A DNA stretch of 64,000 nucleotides from Amia ocellicauda (taxonomy: Eukaryota > Chordata > Actinopteri > Amiiformes > Amiidae), in contig NC_089863.1 in the NCBI RefSeq assembly GCF_036373705.1, positions 9,839,357 through 9,903,356 on the forward strand, given 5' to 3'. The position numbers and the translations under genes are program-made. Below are positions 6,751 through 60,384 of the stretch, in pieces. Under the pieces are notes generated by a model that did no database searches, was not told the DNA's origin, and saw only the letters and a program-made list of their open reading frames with translations. Position 1 is the stretch's first letter. Each line of letters starts with the position of its first letter.

Positions 6751-7119
6751 CATGTCCCTTTGTTGAGACAAGAAAACAAAAAATCATACACAGGCGGCTT
6801 CTGTTATTGCTTTATATTTTGAGTGACATAGTTGTCATATTTACGGGCAAGGTTTCAAAACGTAACAAAAAAAGCTTTATATACAAAAATGACAGCCTGT
6901 GTCGCCCCCCCCCCGCAAAAAATATGTATAATATATACAGCAAAGACACACAACCCCAAAAATACACAACTAATATTTACAGTCCACTCCACCTTGGCAA
7001 TATTCTCCCCGTGTCCCCTCCTCCTCCTCGTCTCCCCATGTTCTTATGTCTCTTGATCCTCCCTGATTCTTCTCTACCTCCTGGCTCTTCTCCTTCTCCT
7101 TCTCTCCTCCATCTCCCTC
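6751..7119 (-). other. Presumed TTC5 3' UTR and spacer
   Basis: The sequence between array 1 and the TTC5 stop codon is AT-rich near 6770-6960 and CT-rich near 7000-7115. No AATAAA was found on the TTC5 strand. Weak variants reading TATAAA lie near 6808 and 6875. No gene is visible here. Confidence 0.4.
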
Positions 7120-29390: not shown

Positions 29391-30274
29391 CACACCGATC
29401 AGCCATAACATTATGACCAGCTGCCTAATATTGTGTAGGTCCCCCTTTTGCCGCCAAAACAGCCCTGACCCATCGAGGCATGGACTCCACTAGACCTCTG
29501 AAGGTGTGCTGTGGTATCTGACACCAAGACGTTAGCAGCAGATCCTTTAAGTCCTGTAAGTTGCGAGGATCGGACTTGTTTGTCCAGCACATCCCACAGA
29601 TGCTCGATTGGATTGAGATCTGGGGAATTTGGAGGCCAAGTCAACACCTTGAACTCGTGATTCATCAGACCAGGCCACCTTCTTCCATTGCTCCGTGGTC
29701 CAGTTCTGATCCTCACGTGCCCATTGTAGGCACTTTCGGCAGTGGACAGGGGTCAGCATGGGCACCCTGACTGGTCTGCGGCTACGCAGCCCCATACGCA
29801 ACAAACTGCGATGCACTGTGTGTTCTGACACCTTTCTATCAGAACCAGCATTCACTTTTTCAGCAATTTGAGCCACAGTAGCTCGTCTGTTGGATCGGAC
29901 CACACGGGCCAGCCTTCGCTCCCCACGTGCATCAATGAGCCTTGGCCTCCCATGACCCTGTCGCCGGTTCACCGCTTTTCCTTCCTTGGACCACTTTTGA
30001 TAAGTACTGACCACTGCAGACCGGGAACACCCCACAAGAGCTGCAGTTTTGGAGATGCTCTGACCCAGTCGTCTAGCCATCATTTGGCCCTTGTCAAAGT
30101 CGCTCAGATCCTTACACTTGCCCATTTGTCCTGCTTCTAACACATCAACTTTGAGGACAAAATGTTCACTTGCTGCCTAATATATCCCACCCACTGACAG
30201 GTGCCATGATAACGAGATTTTCAGTGTTATTCACTTCACCTGTCAGTGGTCATAATGTTATGGCTGATCGGTGT
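29391..30274 (-). mobile_element. Second Tc1-like family, internally deleted copy
   Basis: The inverted ends CACCGATCAGCCATAACATT (29393 onward) and its complement (to 30274) delimit an 884-bp element. The transposase frame starts at 30143 ([20 protein letters not shown] follows a short leader) and runs through WSDES. It then jumps out of frame to [18 protein letters not shown] on another frame near 29560-29650, so the segment with the second catalytic Asp is deleted. The copy is non-autonomous. A DD36E element inserted into the TA run beside its right end. Confidence 0.82.
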
Positions 30275-30283
30275 ATATATATA

Positions 30284-31501
30284 CACTCACCTAAAGGATT
30301 ATTAGGAACACCATACTAATACTGTGTTTGACCCCCTTTCGCCTTCAGAACTGCCTTCATTCTACGTGGCATTGATTCAACAAGGTGCTGAAAGCATTCT
30401 TTAGAAATGTTGGCCCATATTGATAGGATAGCATCTTGCAGTTGATGGAGATTTGTGGGATGCACATCCAGGGCACGAAGCTCCCGTTCCACCACATCCC
30501 AAAGATGCTCTATTGGGTTGAGATCTGGTGACTGTGGGGGTCAGTTTAGTACAGTGAACTCATTGTCATGTTCAAGAAACCAATTTGAAATGATTCGACC
30601 TTTGTGACATGGTGCATTATCCTGCTGGAAGTAGACATCAGAGGATGGGTACATGGTGGTCATAAAGGGATGGACATGGTCAGAAACAATGCTCAGGTAG
30701 GCCGTGGCATTTAAACGATGCCCAATTGGCACTAAGGGGCCTAAAGTGTGCCAAGAAAACATCCTCCACACCATTACACCACCACCACCAGCCTGCACAG
30801 TGGTAACAAGGCATGATGGATCCATGTTCTCATTCTGTTTACGCCAAATTCTGACTCTACCATCTGAATGTCTCAACAGAAATCGAGACTCATCAGACCA
30901 GGCAACATTTTTCCAGTCTTCAACTGTCCAATTTTGGTGAGCTTGTGCAAATTGTAGCCTCTTTTTCCTATTTGTAGTGGAGATGAGTGGTACCCGGTGG
31001 GGTCTTCTGCTGTTGTAGCCCATCCGCCTCAAGGTTGTACGTGTTGTGGCTTCACAAATGCTTTGCTGCATACCTCGGTTGTAACGAGTGGTTATTTCAG
31101 TCAAAGTTGCTCTTCTATCAGCTTGAATCAGTCGGCCCATTCTCCTCTGACCTCTAGCATCAACAAGGCATTTTCGCCCACAGGACTGCCGCATACTGGA
31201 TGTTTTTCCCTTTTCACACCATTCTTTGTAAATCCTAGAAATGGTTGTGCGTGAAAATCCCAGTAACTGAGCAGATTGTGAAATACTCAGACCGGCCCGT
31301 CCGGCACCAACAACCATGCCACGCTCAAAATTGCTTAAATCACCTTTCTTTCCCATTCAGACATTCAGTTTGGAGTTCAGGAGATTGTCTTGACCAGGAC
31401 CACACCCCTAAATGCATTGAAGCAACTGCCATGTGATTGGTTGGTTAGATAATTGCATTAATGAGAAATTGAACAGGTGTTCCTAATAATCCTTTAGGTG
31501 A

Positions 31502-31504
<3 letters not shown>
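30284..31504 (-). mobile_element. Tc1/mariner DD36E element, copy 3
   Basis: A 1221-bp copy of the same family as 3287 and 24135, inserted on the minus strand at a TA next to the terminal repeat of the second Tc1-like family. Both inverted repeats are intact. Confidence 0.93.
30316..31356 (-). pseudogene. DD36E transposase with one nonsense codon
   Basis: The frame begins MGKKGDLSNFERGMVVGAGR and is open for 271 codons. The Trp272 codon is TGA instead of TGG (30541-30543), just before the SPDLNPIE block holding the third catalytic acid. The remaining 74 codons downstream are intact in frame to the TAG at 30316-30318. The predicted product lacks Glu283 and should be inactive. The identical lesion in the copy at 34724-35764 shows it predates the tandem duplication. 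Confidence 0.9.

Positions 31505-31507
<3 letters not shown>

Positions 31508-31560
<53 letters not shown>
31508..31560. repeat. TA microsatellite, unit 1
   Basis: A pure TA run that starts a few bases after the right end of the copy 3 element. It is about 24 bp shorter than its counterpart at 35916, which accounts for the length difference between the two tandem units. Confidence 0.85.
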
Positions 31561-31566
<6 letters not shown>

Positions 31567-31724
31567 TGACTGTTTTAATCTGATTAATTTTTAAATAATG
31601 TTATTTCAGTTTTTCTCCCCACATCAGAAACTGACTGTTCAGTCAGTCTGATCTGACTCGGGAAACTAAATCCGCAGGTCAGAGAAACTTGTTTCTCTGC
31701 AGTCAGGCCTCAGGGCTCATGCAC

Positions 31725-33035
31725 AGTGGCTCTCAACTGTATTCACCCCCCTTGGACTTATCCACATATCATTGTGTTACAACATGAAATCAGAATGGAT
31801 TTAATCGGGAGTTTTTGTCCATAATGTCAAAGTGAAAAATATAACCTGCAAATTGTTCTAAATTAATTACAAATACAAAACAGTAAATAATTGAATGCAT
31901 CAGTAATCACCTCCTTCAATCAATATTTGGTAGAGGCACTTTTGGCAGCAATGACAGCCATGAGTCTATGTGAATAAGTCTTTGCACATCTGGACACAGA
32001 CATTTTTGCCCATTTCTTTGCAAAATTGCTCAAGCTCCATCAAGTTGGATGGGGACCTTTGGTGAACAGCAATTTTCAACTCTCTCCACATATTCTCAAT
32101 TGGATTGAGGTCCGAGCTTTGACTGGGCCACTCCAGGACATTGACCTTTTTGTTTTTATGCCACTCCAGTGTGGCTTTGGCTGTATGTTTGGGGTCATTG
32201 TCCTGCTGGAGGACAAATCTTCCCAGGTCTCTTGCAGACTTCAGCAGGTTTTCTTCAAGGATTTCTTTATACTTTGCTGCATCCATTTTGCCCTCTATCT
32301 TTACAAGGTTTCCAGGCCCTGACGCAGAGAAGCATCCCCATAGCATGATGTTGCCACCACCATGCTTCACGGTAGGGATGGTGTTTTCAGGATGATTTGC
32401 GGTGTTAAGCTTGCGCCAAATGTAGCGCTTAGCATTGAGGCCAAAAAGCTCTATTTTGGTCTCATCGGACCATAGAATCTTCCTCCACTTGGTCTCAGAG
32501 TCACTCACATGCCTTCTGGCAAACTCTAGCAGAGATTTGATGTGAGTTTTTTTTTTTTTTTAACAAAAGGCCACTTTTGTGAAGACCCAGGCTATTGTTT
32601 GCAGTTTGCAGTATGTCTCCCAGCTCAGCCGTGGAAGACTGTAACTCCTCTTGGTGGCCTCCCTGACTAGTGCCCTTCCCGCCCGGATACTCCGTTTTTG
32701 AGGACGGCCTGATCTAGGCAGATTCACAGTTGTGCCATTGTATTTAACTTGAAATCATGTGACACACCTTAATGGCACAGAGGTGGACTCCATTAAACTA
32801 ATTATGTTACTTCTAAAGACAGTTGGTTTCACCACAGCTCAATCAGGTGTGTCAAAGGGGGTGACTACTTATGCATTCAAGTTTCTGTAATTAATTTAGA
32901 ACAATTTGCAGATTATATTTTTCAGTTTGACATTATGGACATTTTCTGTGTTGATCAGTGGCAAAAACTCCTGATTAAATCCATTCTGATTTCATGTTGT
33001 AACACAATGAAATGTGAAAAAGTCCAACTGTGTAT
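31725..33035 (-). mobile_element. Tc1-like DD34E element remnant, unit 1
   Basis: Long inverted ends of about 120 bp or more, with ATGAAATCAGAATGGATTTA on one side and its complement on the other, enclose a damaged transposase. The C-terminal 180 residues are open (31966-32508). [19 protein letters not shown] and [11 protein letters not shown] give a DD34E spacing. SPDL is changed to SSDL, and the N-terminal part is broken and interrupted by a poly-T tract near 32551-32564. It is a non-functional relative of the Sleeping Beauty/Tc1 group. Confidence 0.8.
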
Positions 33036-34064
33036 ATTTTACTGTTTTTAAATGATGAATTGTAAAATAATGTTATTTGTTTCTCTCCCCATCACATCAG
33101 ACACACCCATTAGCTGTTCAGTCAGGCTGATTTGACTCAGGAAACTGAATCCACAGGTCAGAGAACCTCATTTGTCTGCAGTCAGGCCTCAGTTCTCGTC
33201 TTGTCAAAGGGGACATGTATGTGTCCTCTGCTTTTAGTTGAAGGGGAGAATGTTAAACTGTCCTGTCTCAAAGTGTGCCAATGAGTACGGAGCAATGTTA
33301 TCATCCTAGTTTGTGCAGGACACGTTGTGTAACACGCTGACTGTAGGATATTACAGTCCGTGTAACACACACTGACCTGTAAAGGACATTACAGTGTGAG
33401 AGATACACGGCACATGCTGACCTGTAGAGGCAATAAATAACAAGATAAATAACAAAGTATGTCAAATAGGAAGAGAGCAATCTAGTCTCAAGCTGACTTG
33501 AGTCCTTAGGAGTGTTTTCCAAATGGGGAAAAAAAAAAAAATGTTACAAGATGCCTCCAACTACACAAACATCTGTGAACATGGTCTTGCATTAATGATT
33601 TTAATGTTTAAACTAATAGTAAGAATGATATATCAGTGCACCCACAGTTGTAAAATTAAACCTATAAAATTAGTAAAAAAAAAAAAAAAGATTGTTTTAA
33701 CTCTGATATTCCACTATAAGTGACCCGGGATCCCATCTTTTCATAACGCACTTTTCATCACCAGCGAGTTCATTAACAATTTGCATCCTAAGATTCCAAA
33801 ACAGACTTTTATTAGTAGACTTTTTTAAATCTCTAATTTCACCCACCCCTTAGTTGTAATGTAATTTCTGTCCTCACTCTGCACAGAATCTGACCATTTA
33901 TTAAATGAAGGTTCAGACTGTCTGCAGTCAGTGTGAAGGAAAACACTGCCTTTACATGATCTAATATTCCAGTAATACATACTGGGAGAAATACTTACAT
34001 TACAAATAGTTGCAGTACACCAGGTGAATATTTGTTGTGGGAAGTCACTCAGTGTAAGTTTTTT
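33036..34064. other. Unique part of duplication unit 1
   Basis: AT-rich DNA with A tracts near 33531 and 33675. No gene is recognised. An almost identical stretch is present in unit 2 (37468-38496). Confidence 0.4.
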
Positions 34065-34691
34065 GTGATTCATCAGACCAGGCCACCTTCTTCCATTGCT
34101 CCGTGGTCCAGTTCTGATCCTCACGTGCCCATTGTAGGCACTTTCGGCAGTGGACAGGGGTCAGCATGGGCACCCTGACTGGTCTGCGGCTACGCAGCCC
34201 CATACGCAACAAACTGCGATGCACTGTGTGTTCTGACACCTTTCTATCAGAACCAGCATTCACTTTTTCAGCAATTTGAGCCACAGTAGCTCGTCTGTTG
34301 GATCGGACCACACGGGCCAGCCTTCGCTCCCCACGTGCATCAATGAGCCTTGGCCTCCCATGACCCTGTCGCCGGTTCACCGCTTTTCCTTCCTTGGACC
34401 ACTTTTGATAAGTACTGACCACTGCAGACCGGGAACACCCCACAAGAGCTGCAGTTTTGGAGATGCTCTGACCCAGTCGTCTAGCCATCATTTGGCCCTT
34501 GTCAAAGTCGCTCAGATCCTTACACTTGCCCATTTGTCCTGCTTCTAACACATCAACTTTGAGGACAAAATGTTCACTTGCTGCCTAATATATCCCACCC
34601 ACTGACAGGTGCCATGATAACGAGATTATCAGTGTTATTCACTTCACCTGTCAGTGGTCATAATGTTATGGCTGATCGGTGTATATATATA

Positions 34692-35909
34692 CACTCACCT
34701 AAAGGATTATTAGGAACACCATACTAATACTGTGTTTGACCCCCTTTCGCCTTCAGAACTGCCTTCATTCTACGTGGCATTGATTCAACAAGGTGCTGAA
34801 AGCATTCTTTAGAAATGTTGGCCCATATTGATAGGATAGCATCTTGCAGTTGATGGAGATTTGTGGGATGCACATCCAGGGCACGAAGCTCCCGTTCCAC
34901 CACATCCCAAAGATGCTCTATTGGGTTGAGATCTGGTGACTGTGGGGGTCAGTTTAGTACAGTGAACTCATTGTCATGTTCAAGAAACCAATTTGAAATG
35001 ATTCGACCTTTGTGACATGGTGCATTATCCTGCTGGAAGTAGACATCAGAGGATGGGTACATGGTGGTCATAAAGGGATGGACATGGTCAGAAACAATGC
35101 TCAGGTAGGCCGTGGCATTTAAACGATGCCCAATTGGCACTAAGGGGCCTAAAGTGTGCCAAGAAAACATCCTCCACACCATTACACCACCACCACCAGC
35201 CTGCACAGTGGTAACAAGGCATGATGGATCCATGTTCTCATTCTGTTTACGCCAAATTCTGACTCTACCATCTGAATGTCTCAACAGAAATCGAGACTCA
35301 TCAGACCAGGCAACATTTTTCCAGTCTTCAACTGTCCAATTTTGGTGAGCTTGTGCAAATTGTAGCCTCTTTTTCCTATTTGTAGTGGAGATGAGTGGTA
35401 CCCGGTGGGGTCTTCTGCTGTTGTAGCCCATCCGCCTCAAGGTTGTACGTGTTGTGGCTTCACAAATGCTTTGCTGCATACCTCGGTTGTAACGAGTGGT
35501 TATTTCAGTCAAAGTTGCTCTTCTATCAGCTTGAATCAGTCGGCCCATTCTCCTCTGACCTCTAGCATCAACAAGGCATTTTCGCCCACAGGACTGCCGC
35601 ATACTGGATGTTTTTCCCTTTTCACACCATTCTTTGTAAATCCTAGAAATGGTTGTGCGTGAAAATCCCAGTAACTGAGCAGATTGTGAAATACTCAGAC
35701 CGGCCCGTCCGGCACCAACAACCATGCCACGCTCAAAATTGCTTAAATCACCTTTCTTTCCCATTCAGACATTCAGTTTGGAGTTCAGGAGATTGTCTTG
35801 ACCAGGACCACACCCCTAAATGCATTGAAGCAACTGCCATGTGATTGGTTGGTTAGATAATTGCATTAATGAGAAATTGAACAGGTGTTCCTAATAATCC
35901 TTTAGGTGA

Positions 35910-35912
<3 letters not shown>
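34692..35912 (-). mobile_element. Tc1/mariner DD36E element, copy 4
   Basis: This is the duplicate of copy 3 at exactly +4408. It arose by segmental duplication, not by its own insertion. Terminal repeats are intact. Confidence 0.93.
34724..35764 (-). pseudogene. DD36E transposase with one nonsense codon (duplicate)
   Basis: The same 271-codon open part and the same TGA at codon 272 (34949-34951) as the copy at 30316. The open part encodes the same protein in both copies. Confidence 0.9.

Positions 35913-35915
<3 letters not shown>

Positions 35916-35992
<77 letters not shown>
35916..35992. repeat. TA microsatellite, unit 2
   Basis: A longer version of the TA run in unit 1. It is the only sizeable length change between the two tandem units. 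Confidence 0.85.
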
Positions 35993-35998
<6 letters not shown>

Positions 35999-36156
35999 TG
36001 ACTGTTTTAATCTGATTAATTTTTAAATAATGTTATTTCAGTTTTTCTCCCCACATCAGAAACTGACTGTTCAGTCAGTCTGATCTGACTCGGGAAACTA
36101 AATCCGCAGGTCAGAGAAACTTGTTTCTCTGCAGTCAGGCCTCAGGGCTCATGCAC

Positions 36157-37467
36157 AGTGGCTCTCAACTGTATTCACCCCCCTTGGACTTATCCACATA
36201 TCATTGTGTTACAACATGAAATCAGAATGGATTTAATCGGGAGTTTTTGTCCATAATGTCAAAGTGAAAAATATAACCTGCAAATTGTTCTAAATTAATT
36301 ACAAATACAAAACAGTAAATAATTGAATGCATCAGTAATCACCTCCTTCAATCAATATTTGGTAGAGGCACTTTTGGCAGCAATGACAGCCATGAGTCTA
36401 TGTGAATAAGTCTTTGCACATCTGGACACAGACATTTTTGCCCATTTCTTTGCAAAATTGCTCAAGCTCCATCAAGTTGGATGGGGACCTTTGGTGAACA
36501 GCAATTTTCAACTCTCTCCACATATTCTCAATTGGATTGAGGTCCGAGCTTTGACTGGGCCACTCCAGGACATTGACCTTTTTGTTTTTATGCCACTCCA
36601 GTGTGGCTTTGGCTGTATGTTTGGGGTCATTGTCCTGCTGGAGGACAAATCTTCCCAGGTCTCTTGCAGACTTCAGCAGGTTTTCTTCAAGGATTTCTTT
36701 ATACTTTGCTGCATCCATTTTGCCCTCTATCTTTACAAGGTTTCCAGGCCCTGACGCAGAGAAGCATCCCCATAGCATGATGTTGCCACCACCATGCTTC
36801 ACGGTAGGGATGGTGTTTTCAGGATGATTTGCGGTGTTAAGCTTGCGCCAAATGTAGCGCTTAGCATTGAGGCCAAAAAGCTCTATTTTGGTCTCATCGG
36901 ACCATAGAATCTTCCTCCACTTGGTCTCAGAGTCACTCACATGCCTTCTGGCAAACTCTAGCAGAGATTTGATGTGAGTTTTTTTTTTTTTTTAACAAAA
37001 GGCCACTTTTGTGAAGACCCAGGCTATTGTTTGCAGTTTGCAGTATGTCTCCCAGCTCAGCCGTGGAAGACTGTAACTCCTCTTGGTGGCCTCCCTGACT
37101 AGTGCCCTTCCCGCCCGGATACTCCGTTTTTGAGGACGGCCTGATCTAGGCAGATTCACAGTTGTGCCATTGTATTTAACTTGAAATCATGTGACACACC
37201 TTAATGGCACAGAGGTGGACTCCATTAAACTAATTATGTTACTTCTAAAGACAGTTGGTTTCACCACAGCTCAATCAGGTGTGTCAAAGGGGGTGACTAC
37301 TTATGCATTCAAGTTTCTGTAATTAATTTAGAACAATTTGCAGATTATATTTTTCAGTTTGACATTATGGACATTTTCTGTGTTGATCAGTGGCAAAAAC
37401 TCCTGATTAAATCCATTCTGATTTCATGTTGTAACACAATGAAATGTGAAAAAGTCCAACTGTGTAT
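36157..37467 (-). mobile_element. Tc1-like DD34E element remnant, unit 2
   Basis: Duplicate of 31725-33035 at +4432. The open C-terminal part is at 36398-36940 and encodes the same 180 residues with the [11 protein letters not shown] block. Confidence 0.8.
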
Positions 37468-38496
37468 ATTTTACTGTTTTTAAATGATGAATTGTAAAAT
37501 AATGTTATTTGTTTCTCTCCCCATCACATCAGACACACCCATTAGCTGTTCAGTCAGGCTGATTTGACTCAGGAAACTGAATCCACAGGTCAGAGAACCT
37601 CATTTGTCTGCAGTCAGGCCTCAGTTCTCGTCTTGTCAAAGGGGACATGTATGTGTCCTCTGCTTTTAGTTGAAGGGGAGAATGTTAAACTGTCCTGTCT
37701 CAAAGTGTGCCAATGAGTACGGAGCAATGTTATCATCCTAGTTTGTGCAGGACACGTTGTGTAACACGCTGACTGTAGGATATTACAGTCCGTGTAACAC
37801 ACACTGACCTGTAAAGGACATTACAGTGTGAGAGATACACGGCACATGCTGACCTGTAGAGGCAATAAATAACAAGATAAATAACAAAGTATGTCAAATA
37901 GGAAGAGAGCAATCTAGTCTCAAGCTGACTTGAGTCCTTAGGAGTGTTTTCCAAATGGGGAAAAAAAAAAAAATGTTACAAGATGCCTCCAACTACACAA
38001 ACATCTGTGAACATGGTCTTGCATTAATGATTTTAATGTTTAAACTAATAGTAAGAATGATATATCAGTGCACCCACAGTTGTAAAATTAAACCTATAAA
38101 ATTAGTAAAAAAAAAAAAAAAGATTGTTTTAACTCTGATATTCCACTATAAGTGACCCGGGATCCCATCTTTTCATAACGCACTTTTCATCACCAGCGAG
38201 TTCATTAACAATTTGCATCCTAAGATTCCAAAACAGACTTTTATTAGTAGACTTTTTTAAATCTCTAATTTCACCCACCCCTTAGTTGTAATGTAATTTC
38301 TGTCCTCACTCTGCACAGAATCTGACCATTTATTAAATGAAGGTTCAGACTGTCTGCAGTCACTGTGAAGGAAAACACTGCCTTTACATGATCTAATATT
38401 CCAGTAATACATACTGGGAGAAATACTTACATTACAAATAGTTGCAGTACACCAGGTGAATATTTGTTGTGGGAAGTCACTCAGTGTAAGTTTTTT

Positions 38497-40560
38497 GTTG
38501 TTGTACGTGTTTCATTTACTTTAACTAGTCGTGAGAGAGAGAGACGGGGAGGAGGATATGTGTTTAAAATAGGGCTATAGCACAATTATTGACTTGTTAT
38601 ATTTTACAACGTAAAACAGTTTATACATATTATTTTATGAAACTCAAAATTTGAAATACATCTTTTACTTCTTTATTTTATAAAAATAACAAGGCCTCTA
38701 AAAAAATTACAAACTTAGAAACACAAGGCTAATAAAACAACTAAACATTAATGTCCTGCGTTTTGTTTCACTTAAGTTTACATGCTATGATTTTCATTTG
38801 TTATTAGTTTGCTTGGTTTTGTTACTAAAAATAATCTTATTTCTATTTTTGTTTATTTTGTTGATTTTAGCTGATTGCTGCACACTGTGCAATTCCAAGA
38901 ACTTGCATAGTAACAAGGATGTTAGTCTGGTGATCGACAGAGTAGGCAAGTAGTTTTGATATCAACTGATATGATTCTTGCATCTGTAGTTGCCTTGTTG
39001 GATGTAAATTATGATGTATCCTACCAACCCAGTGTTTTTGTTAAACTGTTTTTAATGTTGTTGTCTGCTTGTTTTATTTGACCTATTTATTAATTGTATT
39101 CTATTGTGTGAATTAACTGCACTTTGGGGCATCTTTCTGAATTACACGTAAATTGTCTTCCTTTAACTGAAGGGGACCTGTGTGGGGTGGTTTCAGTATT
39201 TGTTAAATACTCTATTTCCCTTATATACAACATCGAATAAGGGTGGCGAAGTCTACTTATAATATAGGATATTAGATCAGATAACACAGTCTGGTACAGT
39301 TTGATGGAGCCTTGGCCCGGATTACATTTGGTTTTCTAGTCAGTGACTGGGTTTCATTTATGGAGGGTAATTTGTGCCAACATAAAAATAATTAAATGCT
39401 AAATAAATAAATAAATAAATAAATAAATATAGAAATAAATAAATACATAGATGCATAAAAAATGAAATAAATTGAAATATATATTTATTTATATATTTTG
39501 TTATTCATTATTTATTTATTTGTTTATTCATGTAGGCCTATGTATTTCATATTTTATTTATTTATTCAATTTTTATTTACTGAAGTGAATATGTACTTTG
39601 AAAAACCGACTGCAACTGCCATGGGTAACTGTAGGATTTAATAAAAGTCTGTTTGGAAGCACATTAAGTATGTATGTAATTTTTAAGTGAATATGCAAGT
39701 TGGTGATGAATATGGAAATTGGTGATCAATTGTCACTGGTGATTAAATGTACCCTGATGAAATGTCATAGACCCAAGTGACCCATGTTGTCAATAATTAG
39801 CTGATGGCTACATGATCAAGTGACGAGAGGAAATCCATATTTTGCAGTTTCTTAGATTTATAATGTGACATTTTATAAACTGCTTCCTGTTTTACAGATT
39901 TGTAAGTGGATGATCTGACTCATACAGACTGTAAAAGTGAATGAATAAACAAATGAAAGTGGGTTGAAGGTGTCTAGTCATAACAGGAGTGATGGAAGGG
40001 CCCGTCATGTTACACCCTGTCCTGTATAAACAGCACATCACCCCCATTGGCCCAGTTAATGGAGACTGCTGGAAAAACCTGGGCCTGGTTCAGGGTAACA
40101 GTCTGAGGTGTAGAATCAGGTGACAGGGCTGCTCCTAGTGTGTCTAGTATCTGGGTTAAAGGGATGGATATCTCCAGTAGTTAAACCTGGCAGTTTTTCA
40201 CATTCTCTGTGCTTACATGGCCACTAATATTCCACTGGTATTCAGCCATGTCAACACCATATTCCCAATAGGGAACAAAATATTCCAGCTCTGAATTGAA
40301 AATGTCCTGTGCGCCCCCATCGAGCACTTTGCAATTTCTAATTATTTTCAAATTCTCAACAAAATGCAAACAGAGCATTCTGAATTTACATTCCAACATC
40401 TCACATTCTGAACACTTAAGATTCCCAATACTTGTGCATGTAAATGTACTGATTGATACATTGTTACTGGTATAGATATTCTCAGTCATATGACCGCAGG
40501 TTTGTCTGTCCCTGGTGTCAAAAGTCTGACTTTTATAATAACTGGGTGATTTATTCTGAG
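38497..40560. other. AT-rich intergenic spacer with an AAAT microsatellite
   Basis: A run of AAATAAAT-type repeats lies at about 39395-39460, with further AT-rich low-complexity DNA to 39590. No gene is convincing. A 102-codon Cys-containing frame on the minus strand (40181-40489) has no recognisable family. Confidence 0.4.
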
Positions 40561-40619
40561 CTGGAGCTGTGGATCTTCAGTGCAGAATCATTATATCTCT
40601 GAGTCTGTGTCTCTCCTAG

Positions 40620-41158
40620 ATGGTGGCCCACTGATCCTGGATATGAACACAGCCAGCCGCTACCTGAAGATCTCAGAGGACCTGCTGTCAGCAGAGAGAG
40701 TTAAAGACAAGCAGCCCTACCCTGACCATCTAGACAGGTTTGATCACTGGAATCAGGTGCTGAGCTGCCAGAGCTTCTCCTCAGGGACTCACCACTGGGA
40801 GATGGAGGTGGAGGGAGTCTGGAGAGTTGGGATCAGCTATAAGAGCATCAAGAGGAGAGGGAAGGAACGGTCTGTAGTGCTCGGGAATAACAGTGTGTCG
40901 TGGAGTATTTTACAGAATTTGAAAATGGAGCTCTCAGTCAATCACAATGATAACTACACAGTCCTACCGGTCCCTGGGCCCCTCCGCAGGGTGGCCGTGT
41001 CCCTGGATTACAGCGCCGGCTCTGTGTCCTTCTATGAGGCAGGAGACACTCTGACACACCTGCACATCTTCAGCACCACATTCACCCAGCCTGTCTGTCT
41101 GGGGTTTGGAGTGTACAACACTGACCCACACAGCCGTGTAGCTATAGTGAAGAAGTGA
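40620..41158 (+). CDS. PRY/SPRY (B30.2) domain exon of a TRIM-like protein
   Basis: An exon-like segment opens after CTCTCCTAG (AG at 40618-40619) in phase 1 and runs without stops to TGA at 41156-41158. PRY motifs include LILDMNTASRYLKISEDLLS and YPDHLDRFDHW. SPRY motifs include SGTHHWEMEVEG, WRVGISYKSI, VAVSLDYSAGSVSFYEAGDT and THLHIFSTTFTQPV. This is the C-terminal ligand-recognition module of fish TRIM and NLR-associated proteins. No RING, B-box or coiled-coil exon lies in the 2 kb upstream, so it is either an orphan exon or the last exon of a gene with distant 5' parts. The domain itself looks undamaged. Confidence 0.75.
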
Positions 41159-44848: not shown

Positions 44849-44896
44849 GCAATAATAATAATAATGACAACAGTGTGAGCTGACTCAGAAAAGTGC

Positions 44897-44902
44897 TTTA
44901 TT
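44897..44902 (-). terminator. Polyadenylation signal of the left IL-17-like gene
   Basis: TTTATT on the plus strand (AATAAA on the gene strand) lies about 380 bp after the stop codon, at the position that mirrors 51525-51530 in the other arm. Confidence 0.6.
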
Positions 44903-45192
44903 CCACAGGAGAAATGTCACACAACACCGCTCACTGATTGAGCACTTTAACTATTCAACTTAATTATAAATGGTATAGAGTCCCAGTATAGACACCATTA
45001 ACACACTGGGCTGTAATATAGAGCCCCAGTATAGACACCATTAACACACTGGGCTGTAATATAGAGCCCCAGTATAGACACCATTAGCACACAGTATTCA
45101 CAAAATACAGACATTGTACATTGTACAATATTCACAGAATAAACTCAGAGAATTAACTATACTAGTGATACAGCAACATACACACACACACT

Positions 45193-45242
<50 letters not shown>

Positions 45243-45280
45243 CGCTGTATTAGGGAGCTGGAGACACAGGTCCTGCCCCC

Positions 45281-45551
45281 TCATTGTACTTCTCTACTCT
45301 GTGCGAAGACGCAGATGCAGCCCACAGGGACGGTCATACTGCCCCTGGTCACTCTGTAGTGATGGCTGTGGGGGCAGCGCCGGCGGTGCCACACTGGCAG
45401 AGTACAGGAGAGTGTCTTCACATTGATTAATTGATTCAGCTGCCCAGAGTTGTTGTTCTGGTTCAAGCATCTCTCATGCAAACACTTGGCCATGTACACT
45501 GTTCTGGGGTAGCGGTCATTTCTGGTGTCATTACTAGAGACAGGAAGAGAT

Positions 45552-45610
<59 letters not shown>

Positions 45611-46291
45611 CTGGATCTGTAAAGGCTTTGGCAACACTTATGTAAACTTGTCATGCCAATAAAATTCTTCTTGAATTTGGGGGGGAGAGGAGGGAAGGGA
45701 TAAAGGGGGAGAGGGGGGGGTAAGGAAAGAGAGATTGTCATTAAAAATGTTTCCACTCTTTCCTTCTGTTTCCCATCCCTCTCTCCCACTGATATACAGA
45801 CACACAGACAGACAGACACATAGACATGCACAGAGAGACCGACAGAGACACACAGACACAGTCAGTCACTCACGTGATGTTCCAGGGGGCCAGCGCATGT
45901 TTCTCAGGTTGCACCAGGTTGTGCAGGTTTCTGTACCAGCTGTTGAGTCTCCTCACTGTGCAGTTCTGCTCACAGGTGTCACACAACCCAGACACAGCGG
46001 GCACTGCCAATGCTGCCAGCACACACTGCCGACAGACACACACTGTTACACACTGTGGACACACACTCACATAGTGTTCCACACTGCAGACACACTGAAA
46101 AACACACACACAGACTGACATAGACAGTTACACAATGACACACACACACTGTTACACACACACAGTGTCCAGTACACTGTTACTGTACTGTAGTGACCAG
46201 CACACTCTTGCTATGCCATAGTGTCCAGTTGGTCAGTGTGTCTGAGGTGGTCAGTCACGCTGTCACTCACCATCAGGATGGTCTGCTGCAT
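45281..46291 (-). CDS. Interleukin-17 family cytokine, left copy (141 aa, 3 exons)
   Basis: IL-17 cytokines are secreted cystine-knot dimers that signal through IL-17 receptors. Exons in transcript order are 46291-46271, 46025-45874 and 45533-45281, in frame to a TGA and giving 141 codons. The first ~20 residues (MQQTILMCVLAALAVPAVSG) form a signal peptide. IL-17 hallmarks are an APWNIT segment (cf. SPWN), RYPRTVYMAKCLHERC, and the C-terminal VPVGCICV with Cys130 and Cys132. The other cysteines of the knot are at 75, 80, 101 and 111, with an extra Cys22/25/29 group. Sequons are at N28, N56 and N59. It is nearly identical to the gene at 49448 in exons 1 and 3 but not in exon 2. The subtype (A/F, C, N or E-like) cannot be settled from sequence recall. 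A CA microsatellite (45179-45240) lies in the 3' UTR. Confidence 0.85.
45558..45605. repeat. GA dinucleotide run in intron 2 of the left IL-17-like gene
   Basis: A GA run that equals the CT run at about 50125-50162 in the other arm. It lies just inside the acceptor and forms its polypyrimidine tract on the gene strand. Confidence 0.75.
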
Positions 46292-47019
46292 TCTGATTGG
46301 AGCTCTCAGAGGTCACTAGTGCTGTGGTCACTGCTCTCTCTCTCTCTTTCTCTCTCTCAGGATCGGTGCAGTCCTGCTGTAGTAGTGTAGTAGTATCCAG
46401 TCGGTCAGTATTGTCCTCTCACTGTCTCTGTGTCTCTCTGTCTCTCAGCCCCTTTCCCGTCTCCCTCTTATTCTACCTGAGCGCGACGTCACGGCAACAG
46501 CATCGCCCCCCACACCGCCTCCTCACCACACAGCACACATTTCCATACCATAGACAGCAACAGAGCCATGGAGAGAGAGATGGCGGGAGGGAGCGAGGGA
46601 GTCACCTGTGGTCAGATTTGTTTACCGCCGTGACAATAGTAAAATGAGAGAGAGCAGCCCAGCTCTCCATCTCAGGCTGGGGATTCCCTCTGGGAAGAGG
46701 ATCCCTGATGATGTCACTGGCACTCCAACACCCCGTGGGAATCCCTGATGCTGTCACTGGAGGATCTATTGGAATTGACTGGGATGGACTGCTGCAGATA
46801 TTATTGATTTAATATTAATATGATCACAATATTACAGTTTTTTAGAGTCAATGTGAATGAAACTGTTGTCCACATGACCAACACCATAACCTAGATGAGC
46901 AGAACAGTGTACAACAGTAATCACAACTCTCTACACAAGACACAAAAATCAGTTGGGTAACTCTTTGTCAAACAAAATGAGATAATTTGTTCACAGCCGA
47001 TTACACATTTTCCCACAAC

Positions 47020-47300
47020 TGTGAGTCCCTGTTGCATATGTGCAAATCTTTATTGCTCAGAGGGAGAGGGAGACCACAACCCGAGCTCATAGAGGCAGAG
47101 GGGTGCATCTACGCAGTGGCACAGCAGCTCAAAGGGGAGACACAGAACACGTTTCCAGCGACGTATGTGCCACTATCGTTGACCATGTGATAAACCATGG
47201 CCTTTCAATGTGATTTGCTGGGCAGAGGGTGCAGCCCAATCTAAGCAGCTCAAATGTTGCATCAATAATTACTGTATTCAGAAATGGGAATAGGTAAGTG
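47020..47300 (+). pseudogene. N-terminal remnant of an IS630/Tc1-like transposase
   Basis: Frame-shifted translation gives RGRGRPQPELIE, then VDHVINHGLSM, a stop, and AGQRVQPNLSSSNVASII. That is the helix-turn-helix region of a widespread fish IS630-like transposase. The catalytic part is not present. Confidence 0.5.
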
Positions 47301-47859
47301 ATTATCTGTTACTTCACTGTATTACAGTACTATACACGTACATGTAAGGAGTTTTCCCACCCTGCTCCTTGACCATTTCATGATATCTATTTATAGAACA
47401 GAAAGACAAACTGTTGTTCTTCTGGTGGCTGACTTTGTCATAAGTACTAGTATCTTCAATGGACTTGATTTATGTTCACTCTAAATTCCAGCTTTATTCA
47501 ATGTATCAGGAGCAGTACTGTAACTGAGTAAAGTAAAATATTTTGTCAAAGTATATTTTGCTGTTGTTTAACACTATATGAATACAGCTGTGCTGTGGTG
47601 AGATATTTACTAACCATTTACATTTATTTTACAAACAAGCAGCAGGAGTTTGGGGCTGTGTGTTCAGTGTTCATTATGTTTGGACAAATGTGCTCAAGCA
47701 ATTGAGAAAAAGTGTAACACTGAGACACTGCCACGCTGATTCACTGACTGACTGACAGACACACTGACTGACTGACTGACTGATTGAGACACTGTCAGAG
47801 GGACAGGCCTGAGGAGACGGGAGAAGTGAAAGAGTGGAAACTGAGGCAATTATGGGCAA

Positions 47860-48024
47860 TTATGGAGCTTGCCCATTTTTCCTGCTTCTAACACATCAAC
47901 TTTGAGGACAAAATCTTCACTTGCTGCCTAATATATCCCACCCACTGACAGGTGCCATGATAACGAGATTATCAGTGTTATTCCCTTCACCTGTCAGTGC
48001 TCATAATGTTATGGCTGATCGGTC
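47860..48024 (-). mobile_element. Terminal fragment of the second Tc1-like family
   Basis: About 160 bp, including CTTCTAACACATCAACTTTG and TAATGTTATGGCTGATCGGT, matches the right end of the element at 29391-30274 with scattered changes. It has no transposase core. Confidence 0.85.
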
Positions 48025-48626
48025 AGTTTGATTTGGGATTTAGTTTCCTTGTCCCAGTCTTCCAGAGAGGAGCTGTTGGTTTGCTATAATTTGCTTGAAT
48101 CTGATCTGTGGCCGGAGAGCAGTGCTAGTGTGAAGCTGCTCAGTGTTTTTAGGGGTCAGTGTCGTGAGCTTCAGGGCCAGCTGACAGAGGGGGCTGTTCT
48201 CTGGGCTGAGCTCTTGGCGTTTCAGGGCCTTGTGCTGTGACGAGTCCAGATGGCATCCAGAACTTAAGTGCTCTCTTCTGGGTGGGTACGAGCAGTGGGC
48301 TGTTACAGTAGGGGTCTGTGCTGTAGTAACAGTGTAGTAGAACAGTGCTGTTAGAGTAGGGGACTGTGCTGAAATAGCAGTGTAGTAGAGCAGTGCTGAT
48401 GAGTAAGTGTTAGGGAGAGGGGGCAGGGTAGAGTTAATGTTGAGGATCATAGTGAGGGAATCTCCTTCTCTCTTTCTCTCTCCCTAGTCTGTGGGAGGGA
48501 TCCCCATTCCATGTCGGAATCCCAGTGTGTCACCAGGGATTACCGTCCCGAAGGGGGGGGCAGTGACACAGCAGAGTTGGACTCAAATGCTGTTTGTTTA
48601 TTTTCCTAGATCTATCAGATAAGCAA

Positions 48627-48692
<66 letters not shown>

Positions 48693-49447
48693 GGATAGCT
48701 GTAGTGGTAAACAAATGAGACCGCAGTAGCTGCAGGGCCGCCCCCACCCACCATATCTCCCTTTTTTCTCCATAATTTCCTCACTTTCCACTTTCTCCTT
48801 TCACTTCTCCCATCTCCTCAGTCCTATCCTTTTGACCCCTTTCCCAGTGTGTCAGTCAATCAGTCAGTCAGTCAGTGTATCAGTCAGTGTGGCAATGTCT
48901 CAGTGTTAATATCGTGATCATATTGATGGTAAATTTGCAGATTTCACTCTGCAGCAGTCCATTCCAGTCAATTCCAATAGGTCCTCCAGTGACAGCATCA
49001 GGGATTCCCACGGGGTGTTGGAGTGCCAGTGATTTCGTCAGGGATCCCCTTCCCAGAGGGAATCCCCAGCCTGAGATGAAGAGCTGGGCTGCTCTCTCTC
49101 ATTTTACTATTGTCAAACAAATCTGACCACAGGTGACTCCCTCGCTCCCTCCCGCCATCTCTCTCTCCATGGCTCTGTTGCTGTCTATGGTATGGAAATG
49201 TGTGCTGTGTGGTGAGGAGGCGGTGTGGGGGGGCGATGCTGTTGCCGTGACGTCGCGCTCAGGTAGAATAAGAGGGAGACGGGAAAGGGGCTGAGAGACA
49301 GAGAGACACAGAGACAGTGAGAGGACAATACTGACCGACTGGATACTACTACACTACTACAGCAGGACTGCACCGATCCTGAGAGAGAGAAAGAGAGAGA
49401 GAGAGCAGTGACCACAGCACTAGTGACCTCTGAGAGCTCCAATCAGA

Positions 49448-50118
49448 ATGCAGCAGACCATCCTGATGGTGAGTGACAGCGTGACTGACCACCTCAGACA
49501 CACTGACCAACTGGACACTATGGCATAGCAAGAGTGTGCTGGTCACTACAGTACAGTAACAGTGTACTGGACACTGTGTGTGTGTAACAGTGTGTGTGTG
49601 TCATTGTGTAACTGTCTATGTCAGTCTGTGTGTGTGTTTTTCAGTGTGTCTGCAGTGTGGAACACTATGTGAGTGTGTGTCCACAGTGTGTAACAGTGTG
49701 TGTGTCTGTTGGCAGTGTGTGCTGGCAGCATTGGCAGTGCCCGCTGTGTCTGGGTTGTGTGGCACCTGTCAACAGAACTGCACAGAGGAGAGACTCAACA
49801 GCTCGTACGGAAATCTGCACATACATGTGCAACCTGAGAAACATGCGCTGGCCCCCTGGAAAATCATGTGAGTGACTGACTGTGTCTGTGTGTCTCTATC
49901 GGTCTCTCTGTGCATGTCTATGTGTCTGTGTCTGTGTGTCTGTATATCAGTGGGAGAGAGGGATGGGAAACTGAAGGAAAGAGTGCAAACATCTTTAATG
50001 ACAATCTCTCTTTCCTTCCCCCCTTCTCTCCTCTCTCTCAAATTCAAAATCAAATTAAAAAGAGCTCTATTGGCATGACAAGTTTACACAAGTGTTGCCA
50101 AAGCCTTTACAGATCCAG

Positions 50119-50167
<49 letters not shown>

Positions 50168-50438
50168 ATCTCTTTCTGTCTCTAGTAATGACACCAGAAA
50201 TGACCGCTACCCCAGAACAGTGTACATGGCCAAGTGTTTGCATGAGAGATGCTTGAACCAGAACAACAACTCTGGGCATCTGAATCAATTAATCAATGTG
50301 AAGACACTCTCCTGTACTCTGCCAGTGTGGCACCGCCGGCGCTGCCCCCACAGCCATCACTACAGAGTGACCAGGGGCAGTATGACCGTCCCTGTGGGCT
50401 GCATCTGCGTCTTCGCACAGAGTAGAGAAGTACAATGA
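49448..50438 (+). CDS. Interleukin-17 family cytokine, right copy (141 aa, 3 exons)
   Basis: Exons 49448-49468, 49716-49867 and 50186-50438 join in frame to 141 residues. The signal peptide and the IL-17 core (RYPRTVYMAKCLHERC at 65-80, VPVGCICV at 127-134) are the same as in the left copy. Exon 3 differs from the left copy by one residue (His89 versus Gln89). Exon 2 differs at residues 23, 26, 31, 32, 37, 39, 43, 44, 56 and 58. These changes swap charge (Glu31-Glu32 versus Val-Arg) and move glycosylation sequons (N35-S-S here; N56-I-T only in the left copy). Start and splice sites are fully conserved, so both copies look functional. The genes are divergently transcribed with start codons about 3.2 kb apart. 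Confidence 0.85.
50125..50162 (+). repeat. CT run in intron 2 of the right IL-17-like gene
   Basis: This CT dinucleotide tract lies directly before the exon 3 acceptor at 50184-50185. It is the counterpart of 45558-45605. Confidence 0.75.
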
Positions 50439-50475
50439 GGGGGCAGGACCTGTGTCTCCAGCTCCCTAATACAGC

Positions 50476-50496
50476 GAGTGTGTGTGTGTGTGTGAG

Positions 50497-50532
<36 letters not shown>

Positions 50533-51220
50533 AGTGTGTGTGTGTGTGTGTGAGAGAGAGTGTGTGTGAGAGTGTGTGTGAGTGTGTGTGTGTGAGAGTG
50601 TGTGTGTGTGTGTGTGTGTGAGAGAGTGTGTGTGTGTGTGTGTGAGAGAGAGTGTGTGTGAGAGTGTGTGTGAGTGTGTGTGTGTGAGAGTGTGTGTGTG
50701 TGTGTGTGTGTGAGAGAGTGTGTGTGTGTGTGTGTGAGAGAGAGTGTGTGTGAGAGTGTGTGTGAGTGTGTGTGTGTGAGAGTGTGTGTGTGTGTGTGTG
50801 TGTGAGAGAGTGTGTGTGTGTGTGTGAGAGAGTGTGTGTGTGTGTGTGTGAGAGAGAGTGTGTGTGAGAGTGTGTGTGAGTGTGTGTGTGTGAGAGTGTG
50901 TGTGTGTGTGTGTGTGTGAGAGTGTGTGTGTGTGTGTGTGTGTGAGAGTGTGTGTGTGTGAGTGTGTGTGAGAGTGTGTGTGTGTGTGTGTGTGTGAGAG
51001 TGTGTGTGTGTGTGTGTGTGTGAGAGTGTGTGTGTGTGAGTGTGTGTGAGAGTGTGTGTGAGTGTGTGTGTGTGAGAGTGTGTGTGTGTGTGTGTGTGTG
51101 AGAGTGTGTGTGAGTGTGTGTGTGTGAGTGTGTGTGTGTGTGAGAGTGTGTGTGAGTGTGTGAGAGAGTGTGTGTGAGAGTGTGTGTGAGTGTGTGTGTG
51201 TGAGAGTGTGAGTGTGTGTG
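50476..51220 (+). repeat. TG/GTGTGAGA array in the 3' UTR of the right IL-17-like gene
   Basis: About 745 bp of TG repeats interrupted by GAGAG blocks, with a higher-order period of roughly 90-115 bp. For example, GAGAGAGTGTGTGTGAGAGT recurs near 50553, 50645, 50745 and 50855. The left gene has only a short CA run in the same place. Confidence 0.85.
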
Positions 51221-51524
51221 TATGTTGCTGTATCACTATTATGTAGTTCATTCTCTGAGTTTATTCTGTGAATATTGTGACTCTATAGCGTCAAGTACAA
51301 TGTCTGTATTTTGTGAATACTCTGTGTGAATACTGTGTGCTAATGGTGTCTATACTGGGGCTCTATATTACAGCCCAGTGTGTTAATGGTGTCTGTATTG
51401 GGGCTCTATATTATAGACCAGTGTGTTATTGGTGTCTGTACTGGGGATCTATACTATTTATAATTAAGTTGTATAGTTAAAGTGCTAAACCAATGGGGTG
51501 TGTTGTGTAACATTTCTCCTGAGG

Positions 51525-51530
51525 AATAAA
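51525..51530 (+). terminator. Polyadenylation signal of the right IL-17-like gene
   Basis: AATAAA in a context conserved with the left arm, about 1.1 kb after the stop codon because of the expanded array between them. Confidence 0.6.
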
Positions 51531-51559
51531 GCACATTTCTAAGCCAACTCACACTGTTG

Positions 51560-51609
<50 letters not shown>

Positions 51610-51650
51610 GTAAGTATTATTACTGTAAGTATTATTATTATTATTATTAA
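51560..51650. repeat. TTA trinucleotide microsatellite
   Basis: An interrupted ATT/TTA run at the outer boundary of the right arm. The left arm ends in a short version of the same triplet. Confidence 0.8.
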
Positions 51651-58017: not shown

Positions 58018-60384
58018 ATGTCTTAGCCCAGCAGTCTCCTGTCTGAGGAGCAGTTCCAGTACTCTATATGTCTGGATGTATTCACCAGCCCAGTCACCAC
58101 TCCCTATGGGCACAACTTCTGCATGGAGTGTATTGGAGGGTACTGGGACAGCTGTGCTCTGTGCCAGTGCCCACTGTGTAAGGAGGCTTTCTATAGGAGG
58201 CCAGATCTCCACATTAACACAACATTGAAGGAGATCAGTGAGCAGATCGAGCGCTCTGCTCAGCCTGGAGAAGTACCCTGTGATATCTGCACTGGGAGGA
58301 AGCTCAGGGCTGTGAAATCCTGCCTGGTGTGTCTGGCCTCTTACTGCCAGACTCACCTGGAGCCCCATCAGAGAGTCAAAACCCCCTAAAGACACAAACT
58401 GATTTAGCCTGTGAGTGATATTGAAGACAGGCTGTTGCCAGAAGCACCAGAGAGTCCTGGACCTGTTCTGAAGAGAAGACCAGGTCTGTGTTTGTCAGTT
58501 CTGCACAGACCACAGCAGACACACTACTGTCTCCTTAGAGGAGGAATGCAGAGAGAAGAAGGTGGGTTTTTAATTTCTTTGCATTTTACCTTTAAATTAC
58601 AGCTATTGTATATTATCAAACTTCTTGCACAGATTGAATACAAGATAAGGCATATACTCTACAGAGAAAATCATATTCCTTTAAAGTTCTGTCTTTGGAA
58701 AGTGCAGGACCCTGTTCAATAAGGCTCTGTGCTGACTGTCAGTGGGAGAGTCTGGAGCCCAGTGTCAGTGAGCTATCAGCAGTGACTGGAGTGCCTGTGT
58801 CCCCCTGTCTGTCCACAGGCTCAGCTGGGGGACACTGAGGCAGAAGTGCAACAGAAGATCCAGGACAGACTGAAGAAGGTGGAGGAGATCAGACAGGCGA
58901 AGGAGCTCAGCAGAGTTCTCCTGCTGTAGAGTCTCCCAGCCCTGTACCCCCCTCCACACACCAAGGACTGGTCTGACATCACTGTGACCTCTGACCTCTG
59001 TCAGGAGAGCAGTGTCTGAGCTGGAGGAGAGACTCAGGGAGGAACTGAAGGACCTGTATGGAATTGGTTTGTGTTGTAATTTAATTTTTACTGTGCAAGA
59101 AAGTTTTACCTACAGTGACTGAGGACAGAGATCTTGTCTTAACCTGTAAGGATGAATTAGAGTAACTCTTGAAGGAAGTTGTATTTACCCCTATGGAATT
59201 CAGTTCCTCTTAGTCATATAATTGTTTTGTTCATGACAACATTACAGCATTTTTTATGTTTACCAGTCCTATGTTTAATTTAGTCCAGCACAGTGTTTGT
59301 AATCTATGGTGCCTTAAACTGAGTGCTTTTCTTCCAGAGCTGAAGAGGATCTAAAAGTGTAGAGGTGTGTGATTTCTGTTGTTCTTCTCCTGCTCTCACT
59401 CACACACACAGTGCCAGGCAGTGCTGATGGTATAAACTCCTCACTCAGTGGGACCAGTAATATTCACTGACAGGGACTGACTGAGCTCCACAAACATAGT
59501 CTCTCATTGTGAGCTGCTTTCCATGGGGGTCAGTGGCTCTGAGGAATCCCAGCTGACCTGAGCCCAGTCCACAGCAGCACCATCAGCAATATTCACTCAG
59601 TCCAGCAGCACAGCTTCCTGTGAGCCCAGTGTCCCCACCTGGAGAGGAGCTCATACAACACAGACTGTGGCTCTTCTGTTAGGACAGCACTGTGATCTTC
59701 TAAAATAAGTTGTAAAATAGATCTGTCTCCAAGGGTTAAAAAATGTAATGAAAAATAAGAAACCATGTCAATTGTTCATTGTTCTCTTCTCTTCTCCTCA
59801 CAATTGCTGTGACTATTTTCTTCATGTTTCTCTCCTCTCTGTTCCACAGTGGATGTGACTCTGGACCCCAATACAGCTCATCCCTGTCTCATCCTGTCTG
59901 AGGATGGGAAACAAGTGAGAGATGGAGATGAACGACAGGCTCTCCCTGACAATCCAGAGAGATTTGATTGTCCCTGTGTCCTGGGAAAGGAGGGTTTCAG
60001 TACTGGGAGACACTACTGGGAGGTGGAGGTAGGGGAGAAGACTGGCTGGGAGTCACCAGAGAGTCTATCAACAAGAAGGGGGTGATTTCACTGAGCCCTG
60101 AGGATGGGTACTGGATTGTGATTCAGAGGAATGGGAATGAGTACTGGGCTCTTAATGACCCCTCTGTCCTCCTCCCTCTGAGCCCGAAGCCCTGGACGGT
60201 GGGGGTGTTTGTGGATTATGAGTGGGGGCAGGTCTCCTTTTACAATGTGGAGGCCAGGTCTCATATCTACACTTTCACTGAAACCTTCACTGAAAAATTC
60301 TATCCATACTTCAGCCCCGACCTCAATGATGGAGGTAAAAACGCAGCCCCACTGATCATCTCTCCTGTGCGTCCCACAGACTGA
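58018..60384 (+). pseudogene. TRIM39/bloodthirsty-like TRIM gene, decayed
   Basis: The remnant keeps the whole order of a fish TRIM E3 ligase. The RING/B-box part is at 58018-58563, coiled-coil pieces are at about 58819-59070, a short linker is near 59337-59355 and the PRY/SPRY exon is at 59850-60384. Damage is multiple. TAG is the third codon (58024-58026). Two zinc-ligand cysteines of the RING are Tyr (QYSICLD and TPYGHNFC). A TAA at 58387 is followed by a frameshift and another stop in the B-box, where CVCQFCTDHSRHTTVSLEEE is still readable. A stop also follows KELSRVLLL in the coiled coil. A small deletion near TGWES (60045-60055) shifts the PRY/SPRY frame, and SPRY then continues as [20 protein letters not shown] and VGVFVDYEWGQVSFYNVEAR to 60384. 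No functional protein can be made from this copy. Confidence 0.88.

Follow-up and report, generated by a model that had tools for sequence, protein, structure and literature searches.

Why should two neighbouring cytokine genes, almost identical over much of their length, part company within a single exon? The question is posed by a 64,000-base stretch of the Amia ocellicauda genome (assembly GCF_036373705.1, NC_089863.1, positions 9,839,357 to 9,903,356; hereafter the window), lying on a 36-Mb contig (C20), in which two intact IL-17 genes stand head to head on an inverted repeat and point apart, the ATG of the minus copy (M) being 3,157 bases from that of the plus copy (P). The original prediction, made from the letters of the window, had described arms almost alike in exon 1, exon 3 and much of the introns and flanks, with change concentrated in exon 2, and offered two causes: strong diversifying selection on that exon, or gene conversion that homogenised all the rest. 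With a third copy (C3) added, found outside the window when the 988-Mb genome was searched, the answer is very probably that one chromosome carries a small cluster of three or more IL-17 copies whose sequences ectopic recombination, probably gene conversion, has shuffled. We are similarly confident that the exon-2 peak between M and P is mainly the boundary of a recombination tract together with retained older divergence, and not accelerated protein change.

Divergence between the arms and the third copy

Both copies are built from coding exons of 21, 152 and 253 bases, with all four donors starting GT, all four acceptors ending AG, an AATAAA downstream of each gene and a product of 141 residues; the two proteins are 92% identical. 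P, the copy run against Pfam, matches IL17 (PF06083; E 3.8e-16, 59.7 bits, cut-off 24), and exon 3 of both M and P lies above the IL17 cut-off among the nine matches of a genome profile search. The core cysteines C75, C80, C130 and C132 are present in both, with no cysteine differences between them, and residues 1-20 look, by eye, like a signal peptide. NCBIfam, a library for bacteria and archaea, returned no family for three window proteins.

Along the arms, whose inward limits lie at 47,855 (M) and 48,770 (P), the two copies are in turn diverged, identical, diverged, nearly identical and diverged again. The inner flank (47,733-47,855 against 48,770-48,906) differs at 22/128 aligned sites and the upstream flank at 9/161; from promoter to ATG there are no differences in 340 sites, nor any in the 21 of exon 1, and intron 1 has one in 245. 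Exon 2 differs at 15 of 152 bases, all of them within the last 106 (codons 23-58, about 14% there), and intron 2 at 13/307, 20/227 or 27/318 sites, according to the alignment, or omission, of a simple-sequence stretch. Exon 3 has a single difference in 253, the replacement Q89H, and the proximal 3' untranslated region (3'UTR) one in 86, followed by 29 in 323 in its distal part. The likeness first claimed for the arms outside exon 2 is thus real for exon 1, intron 1 and exon 3 and does not extend to intron 2, the distal 3'UTR or the upstream and inner flanks. Intron divergence as high as that of exon 2, a pattern that would speak against localised change, is absent from intron 1; intron 2 reaches 8-9% in two of three alignments, against the 14% of codons 23-58. 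The predicted 3'UTR also contains about 750 bases of GT/GA repeat in P and about 60 in M, a difference that could influence mRNA stability.

The longest run free of differences between M and P spans 627 of the 1,471 sites compared (34 differences; two intron 2 stretches masked), a length reached in none of 20,000 shuffles, and the second longest, of 198, is matched by about 1.2% of them. Unusually long identical tracts between diverged paralogues, one of the marks of ectopic conversion, are therefore present. A two-state segmentation, which placed the flanks and the exon-2 island in the same high state, was not relied on, as its aligner had gapped exon 2 (9 differences instead of 15).

The second mark, different segments grouping different copies, emerges from C3. 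Used as a whole-genome query, exon 2 of P finds three places (P, M and C3; three of three candidates scored), and that of C3 (C20:9,926,437-9,926,588, plus strand, 37 kb past P) has 150 of 152 bases in common with P. C3 carries the promoter, exons 1 and 2, the intron between them and the beginning of intron 2 before passing into N at a CT repeat, and its residues 1-57 are those of P except at residue 23, where it agrees with M. Counting columns in which one copy stands alone (M/P/C3 of n sites), the odd one out changes from segment to segment: 4/13/16 of 187 upstream, plus one all-different column; 0/0/10 of 141 in the proximal promoter; 0/0/0 of 316 over the 5'UTR, exon 1 and the start of intron 1; 0/1/25 of 140 in the rest of intron 1; 0/0/0 of 46 in the leader part of exon 2 (its first 46 bases); 14/1/1 of 106 in codons 23-58; and 20/0/0 of 227 in intron 2 up to the CT run (polypyrimidine excluded). 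This ordering is far from random, with 86 of 104 neighbouring singleton columns equal (none of 20,000 shuffles reach that). M and C3 are told apart by 70 sites; among these, P sides with M at 35/35 to the left of a breakpoint and with C3 at 34/35 to its right; the maximum chi-square of 66.1 places that breakpoint between 49,683 and 49,770 (0/2,000 shuffles). Judged by these alignments, P appears to be a patchwork of M and C3, and the exon-2 peak appears to be where the patches meet.

The 316 bases identical in all three copies (49258-49573; 5'UTR, exon 1 and the start of intron 1) are flanked on both sides by sequence in which C3 is unlike the others, and reflect either very recent three-way homogenisation or constraint. 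A fourth copy as donor was considered and rejected: the exon-2 search gave only its three matches, and among the 81 matches of a 1,224-base arm search (best 40 of 637 candidates scored) only the P, M and C3 places were near full length, the other 78 being fragments some 70-170 bases long, almost all of which fell on two parts of the query sequence. No third exon 3 was found among the nine IL17 profile matches in the genome (18 of 18 candidates scored), and a search of viral contigs for a relative of exon 3 gave two pattern matches, neither confirmed.

Recombination, selection and assembly as explanations

The exon-2 changes are in their details those first described: clustered in codons 23-58, they replace ten codons, with W37S and R39G among them, and leave one silent codon (Asn40). 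The claim of moved N-glycosylation sites applies to one sequon, swapped between N56 in M and N35 in P; N28, N59 and N85 are common to both. Diversifying selection, however, is not supported. Codons 23-58 hold 12 replacement changes over 85.7 sites and 3 silent changes over 22.3 (dN 0.155, dS 0.148), a dN/dS of 1.04 whose exact interval of 0.28-5.7 reflects low power and is still compatible with a ratio of several. Neutral simulation of the same amount of change (5,000 runs for each of three transition weights) replaces a mean of 9.2-9.8 codons against the ten observed, with ten or more in a proportion of 0.44-0.58. Between M and C3, which represent the two exon-2 types, pN is 0.119 and pS 0.189 over codons 23-57, again with no excess of replacements. 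In exon 3, for its part, the roughly 53 synonymous sites show no silent change between M and P, where the roughly 22 of codons 23-58 show 3 (p 0.023; with the comparison widened to codons 8-58, where there are 3 in 36, p 0.063). Constraint on the protein is thus not enough by itself to account for the identity of exon 3.

These observations would be accommodated by a short series of exchanges. Recent tracts would have made M and P nearly identical over the promoter, exon 1 and intron 1 (one substitution in 606 aligned bases), and would also have covered exon 3 and the proximal 3'UTR of both; a further exchange would account for the exon 2 (from about codon 24) and intron 2 common to P and C3, with M keeping a different exon-2 type. 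Conversion is the simplest cause, because the tracts are hundreds of bases long and join M and P in opposite orientation; tracts of that length are in line with a review (PMC3924818). Unequal crossing-over between P and C3, which have the same orientation, could be an alternative source of their common exon 2; conversion in its place, with its direction and age, is what we infer. The conversion first proposed was accordingly right in kind, but the outer arms were not homogenised, and the exon 2 and intron 2 of P are held in common with C3.

Several points weigh against this account. Firstly, the exon-2 core (15/106) is more diverged than the opening 150 bases of intron 2 (4/150, p 0.001) and than the upstream flank alone (9/161, p 0.027). 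It is also more diverged than intron 2 as a whole when that is aligned one way (13/307, p 0.0012), but not when it is aligned another way (27/318, p 0.095); against the pooled unhomogenised flanks, a result in favour of the account, its excess is not significant (38/484, p 0.058; 60/612 with the inner flank added, p 0.17). Secondly, the shuffle tests take sites as exchangeable, Ns hide exon 3 and the 3' flank of C3, and the comparison is among copies of one genome, a limit on any reading of direction or dates. Thirdly, the retained island coincides with the mature N-terminus and spares the leader, which is also what selection against conversion would predict.

That last point belongs to the rival that survives best, which we consider rather unlikely and which may act on top of recombination: that conversion is frequent, that events overwriting the mature N-terminus are removed, and that selection thereby keeps two exon-2 types. 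The leader is identical in the three copies and codons 23-58 are not; red/green opsin exon 5 (PMC3924837) and CEACAM32 (PMC7042247) offer precedents; and the changes fall in an N-terminal part that is variable and contributes to contacts with dimer partner and receptor in human IL-17A/F (PMC5566378, PMC4869123). The spared segment nevertheless shows neither a replacement excess nor any other sign of selection, within the low power already given. The difference between M and C3 continues through intron 2 (20/227 sites), so that the island takes in more than protein-changing sites, and the exon 2 common to P and C3 means that the exon has been exchanged at least once.

Highly improbable, in our judgement, is an artefact of assembly, in which one locus or two haplotypes were laid out as an inverted pair or C3 is a false copy. 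Microsatellites are abundant, and C3 does end in Ns at a CT repeat, but an 886-bp insertion, whose empty site is seen in P, sets the arms apart, as do the 750-base microsatellite and dozens of substitutions; the spacer between the arms lies outside the inverted repeat, and C3 has differences and flanks of its own. Scarcely credible is strong diversifying selection after duplication as the maker of the M/P differences: ten replaced codons against one silent invite it, but that count is the neutral one, dN/dS is about 1, and exon 2 of P is almost that of C3, so P did not diverge there on its own.

For the protein, recombination of this kind may nonetheless have consequences. The expectation of a pair of cytokines sharing a core but differing in their N-terminal faces is borne out by the sequences; expression of the copies, and any effect on receptor binding, are presumed. 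In human IL-17A, strand 0 has the sequence TVMVNLNI; its hydrophobic side chains point inward and its end belongs to receptor region I (PMC4869123). The N-terminal 'skirt' is described as variable and as shaping dimers (PMC5566378). Matching residues 40-43 of P (NLHI) by eye to NLNI would make the changed residues 37, 39 and 43 inward-facing; the best HMMER stretches of P against IL-17A, IL-17F and IL-25 start at residue 47 or later, and so lie beyond that register.

Table 1. Features of the IL-17 inverted repeat, in window coordinates.
Feature	Position	Strand	Basis
M arm of inverted repeat, outer part	44850..46831	-	arm alignment
M AATAAA, polyadenylation-like signal	44897..44902	-	sequence
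M exon 3, coding to stop, 253 bp	45281..45533	-	gene model; IL17 profile match in genome search
M exon 2, 152 bp; unlike P and C3 in codons 23-58	45874..46025	-	gene model, alignment
M exon 1, 21 bp coding from ATG	46271..46291	-	gene model
886-bp insertion, M arm only, TTACA-type ends; empty site in P arm	46832..47717	.	arm alignment
M arm, inner continuation; ~76% identity to 48770-48906	47733..47855	-	arm alignment
P arm of inverted repeat	48770..51598	+	arm alignment
Promoter/exon 1/intron 1 tract, zero substitutions against M arm (two indels, 1 and 2 nt); C3 unlike in its first and last parts	49115..49709	+	alignment
P exon 1	49448..49468	+	gene model
Interval of mosaic breakpoint (M-like left, C3-like right)	49683..49770	+	maximum chi-square
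P exon 2; 150/152 bases same as C3	49716..49867	+	gene model, genome search
Tract common to P and C3, running from codon 26 (exon 2) into intron 2; C3 is N beyond	49770..50135	+	alignment
P exon 3; 1/253 bases unlike M	50186..50438	+	gene model, alignment
GT/GA microsatellite in P 3'UTR, far shorter in M arm	50478..51225	+	sequence
P AATAAA, polyadenylation-like signal	51525..51530	+	sequence

Which IL-17, and in what neighbourhood

The identity of the cluster within the IL-17 family can be approached through its sequence and through its neighbours. Scores and trees were computed from six human IL-17 domains and from the other IL17 matches of this genome. Some of those matches are readily named: that on C6 is IL-17D-like (119 bits), that on C11 IL-17B-like (93), that on C9 IL-17C-like (78), and the two on C1 (C1a, C1b) are IL-17A/F-like (41 and 45 bits with IL-17A). 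Two on C23 (C23a, C23b) are weak, at best 17 and 8 bits; they form a second close pair of IL-17-like exons (C23:15750488-15754283), on one strand with 3.6 kb between them, and score low with each of the six human domains. The maximum-likelihood tree joins the C20 pair to human IL-25 with support of 91/84 with all rows included, 89/90 without C23 and 85/89 without C23 and C1, the C23 rows, with their very long branches, being left out of the reduced and topology-test trees. Long branches lead to the pair and to human IL-25 alike, and a long-branch warning attaches to the join in two of these three trees. Placements with IL-17C (p-AU, approximately unbiased test, 0.119) or with IL-17A/F (p-AU 0.171) are not rejected in the tree without C23; removing human IL-25 leaves the pair alone on a long branch, and removing the pair leaves IL-25 in an unresolved group with IL-17B, C and D. 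Pairwise scores give IL-17E no advantage, with 26-28 bits for the C20 pair with IL-17A and IL-17C and 15-18 with IL-17E. For the P protein, comparison with PDB chains gives 33 bits for IL-17A, 25 for IL-25 and 18 for IL-17F.

As for the neighbours, the window contains METTL3 (phmmer 2.4e-41), a TTC5 piece whose best natural match is TTC5 (4e-23; an engineered TPR protein scores higher, and two pieces carry no Pfam family), and a RING gene matching zf-RING_5 only, which we take to be CCNB1IP1. Four of six marker families (DAD, CAS_C, Homez and Sas10_Utp3) are matched elsewhere on C20 between 8.8 and 9.8 Mb: DAD1 at 9.23 Mb, where both genome matches of the DAD profile fall; Homez at 9.67 Mb, the best of three; a CAS-family C-terminal domain (CAS_C) at 9.79 Mb, 93 kb from M and the third of four, whose nearest solved relative is BCAR1 and whose position suggests that the gene is EFS; and Sas10_Utp3 at 8.85 Mb, the second of two, with one internal stop. 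The METTL3, TTC5, DAD1, Homez, CAS-family and Sas10_Utp3 genes have their human counterparts at 14q11.2. Human IL17E lies at 14q11.2 (PMC7683804). Two negatives count on the other side: of the 21 MARVEL (CMTM5-like) matches in the genome, with 54 of 54 candidates scored, the closest on C20 lies 2.5 Mb off, and no myosin tail (MYH6/7) lies on C20 among the 70 matches listed (best 43 of 724 candidates).

The positional case for IL-25 is fairly good and the sequence case weak. Orthology of the cluster with IL-25 is plausible and unproven; IL-17N is an alternative name for it. That fish have in this cluster an orthologue of the mammalian cytokine IL-17E/IL-25, with three recombining copies and two mature N-terminal segments on one cystine-knot core, is a tentative reading to which we give slightly less than even confidence. 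Were it true, type-2 (tuft cell- or ILC2-like) signalling through IL-17RB could predate mammals and be locally diversified; a ligand said to be missing from fish would be supplied, and the origin of the type-2 signal would become directly testable.

The remainder of the window is rich in repeats. A 4.4-kb tandem direct duplication (29657-34066 and 34065-38498; 99.4% identity, 2 mismatches and 1 gap opening over 4,434 aligned columns) carries transposase-like open frames, and four very similar frames, Tc1/mariner-transposase-like by eye, lie at 3435-4475, 24283-25323, 30541-31356 and 34949-35764; the 1.2-kb Tc1/mariner-like elements at different places are 98.9-99.0% alike. A minisatellite with a unit of some 57-65 bases forms four arrays around TTC5-METTL3 (6007-6756, 16114-17892, 18933-19862 and 21613-22492), one of them inverted, and a 3.7-kb minisatellite at 7344-11041 (34-base unit, about 110 copies) is traversed for the most part by a stop-free frame of 957 codons (8313-11186, minus strand). 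PRY-SPRY and RING/SPRY (TRIM-like) gene pieces lie either side of the IL-17 pair, at 40550-41155 and 58027-60381. In the genome as a whole, FISNA, a domain typical of fish NLR proteins, has 21 matches (27 of 27 candidates scored), in keeping with a fish host.

Comparison with known systems

The mammalian IL-25 locus would resemble the cluster in its block of 14q11.2-type genes and in the join of the best tree, and departs from it in pairwise scores, which here favour IL-17A and IL-17C, and in the CMTM5-like and cardiac-myosin-like matches not found nearby; PMC7178287 and PMC11942210 describe IL-17E as absent from fish or teleosts. Like IL-17A, IL-17F and fish IL-17A/F, the genes have three exons, a very short first exon and an IL-17 domain, and fish IL-17A/F1 and F2 are likewise adjacent (PMC8276262). 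They differ in the length of exon 2 (152 bp, against 164-245 bp reported for fish genes; PMC8276262) and in their neighbours, and the better A/F match in this genome is another pair, on C1. Teleost IL-17N, compared by description only, is similarly a fish IL-17 outside the mammalian six, but is reported with two exons in snakehead (PMC11942210), against three here.

The closest likeness in pattern is with red/green opsin exon 5 and CEACAM32, where paralogues near-identical in leader and non-coding parts have diverged in one coding segment; in CEACAM32 the leader and introns are converted and the Ig exons spared (PMC7042247). Unlike in those systems, a third copy here shows the segment itself exchanged, and a signal of selection was not found. 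Among the matches listed for literature on IL-17 together with gene conversion, no paper joins the two topics. The locus carries a caution, that with a third copy hidden from view a pairwise comparison of exons can mimic selection, and it presents a cytokine cluster in which recombination among neighbours swaps the N-terminal segment and keeps the core uniform: paralogues shuffled by recombination, a mechanism of known kind.

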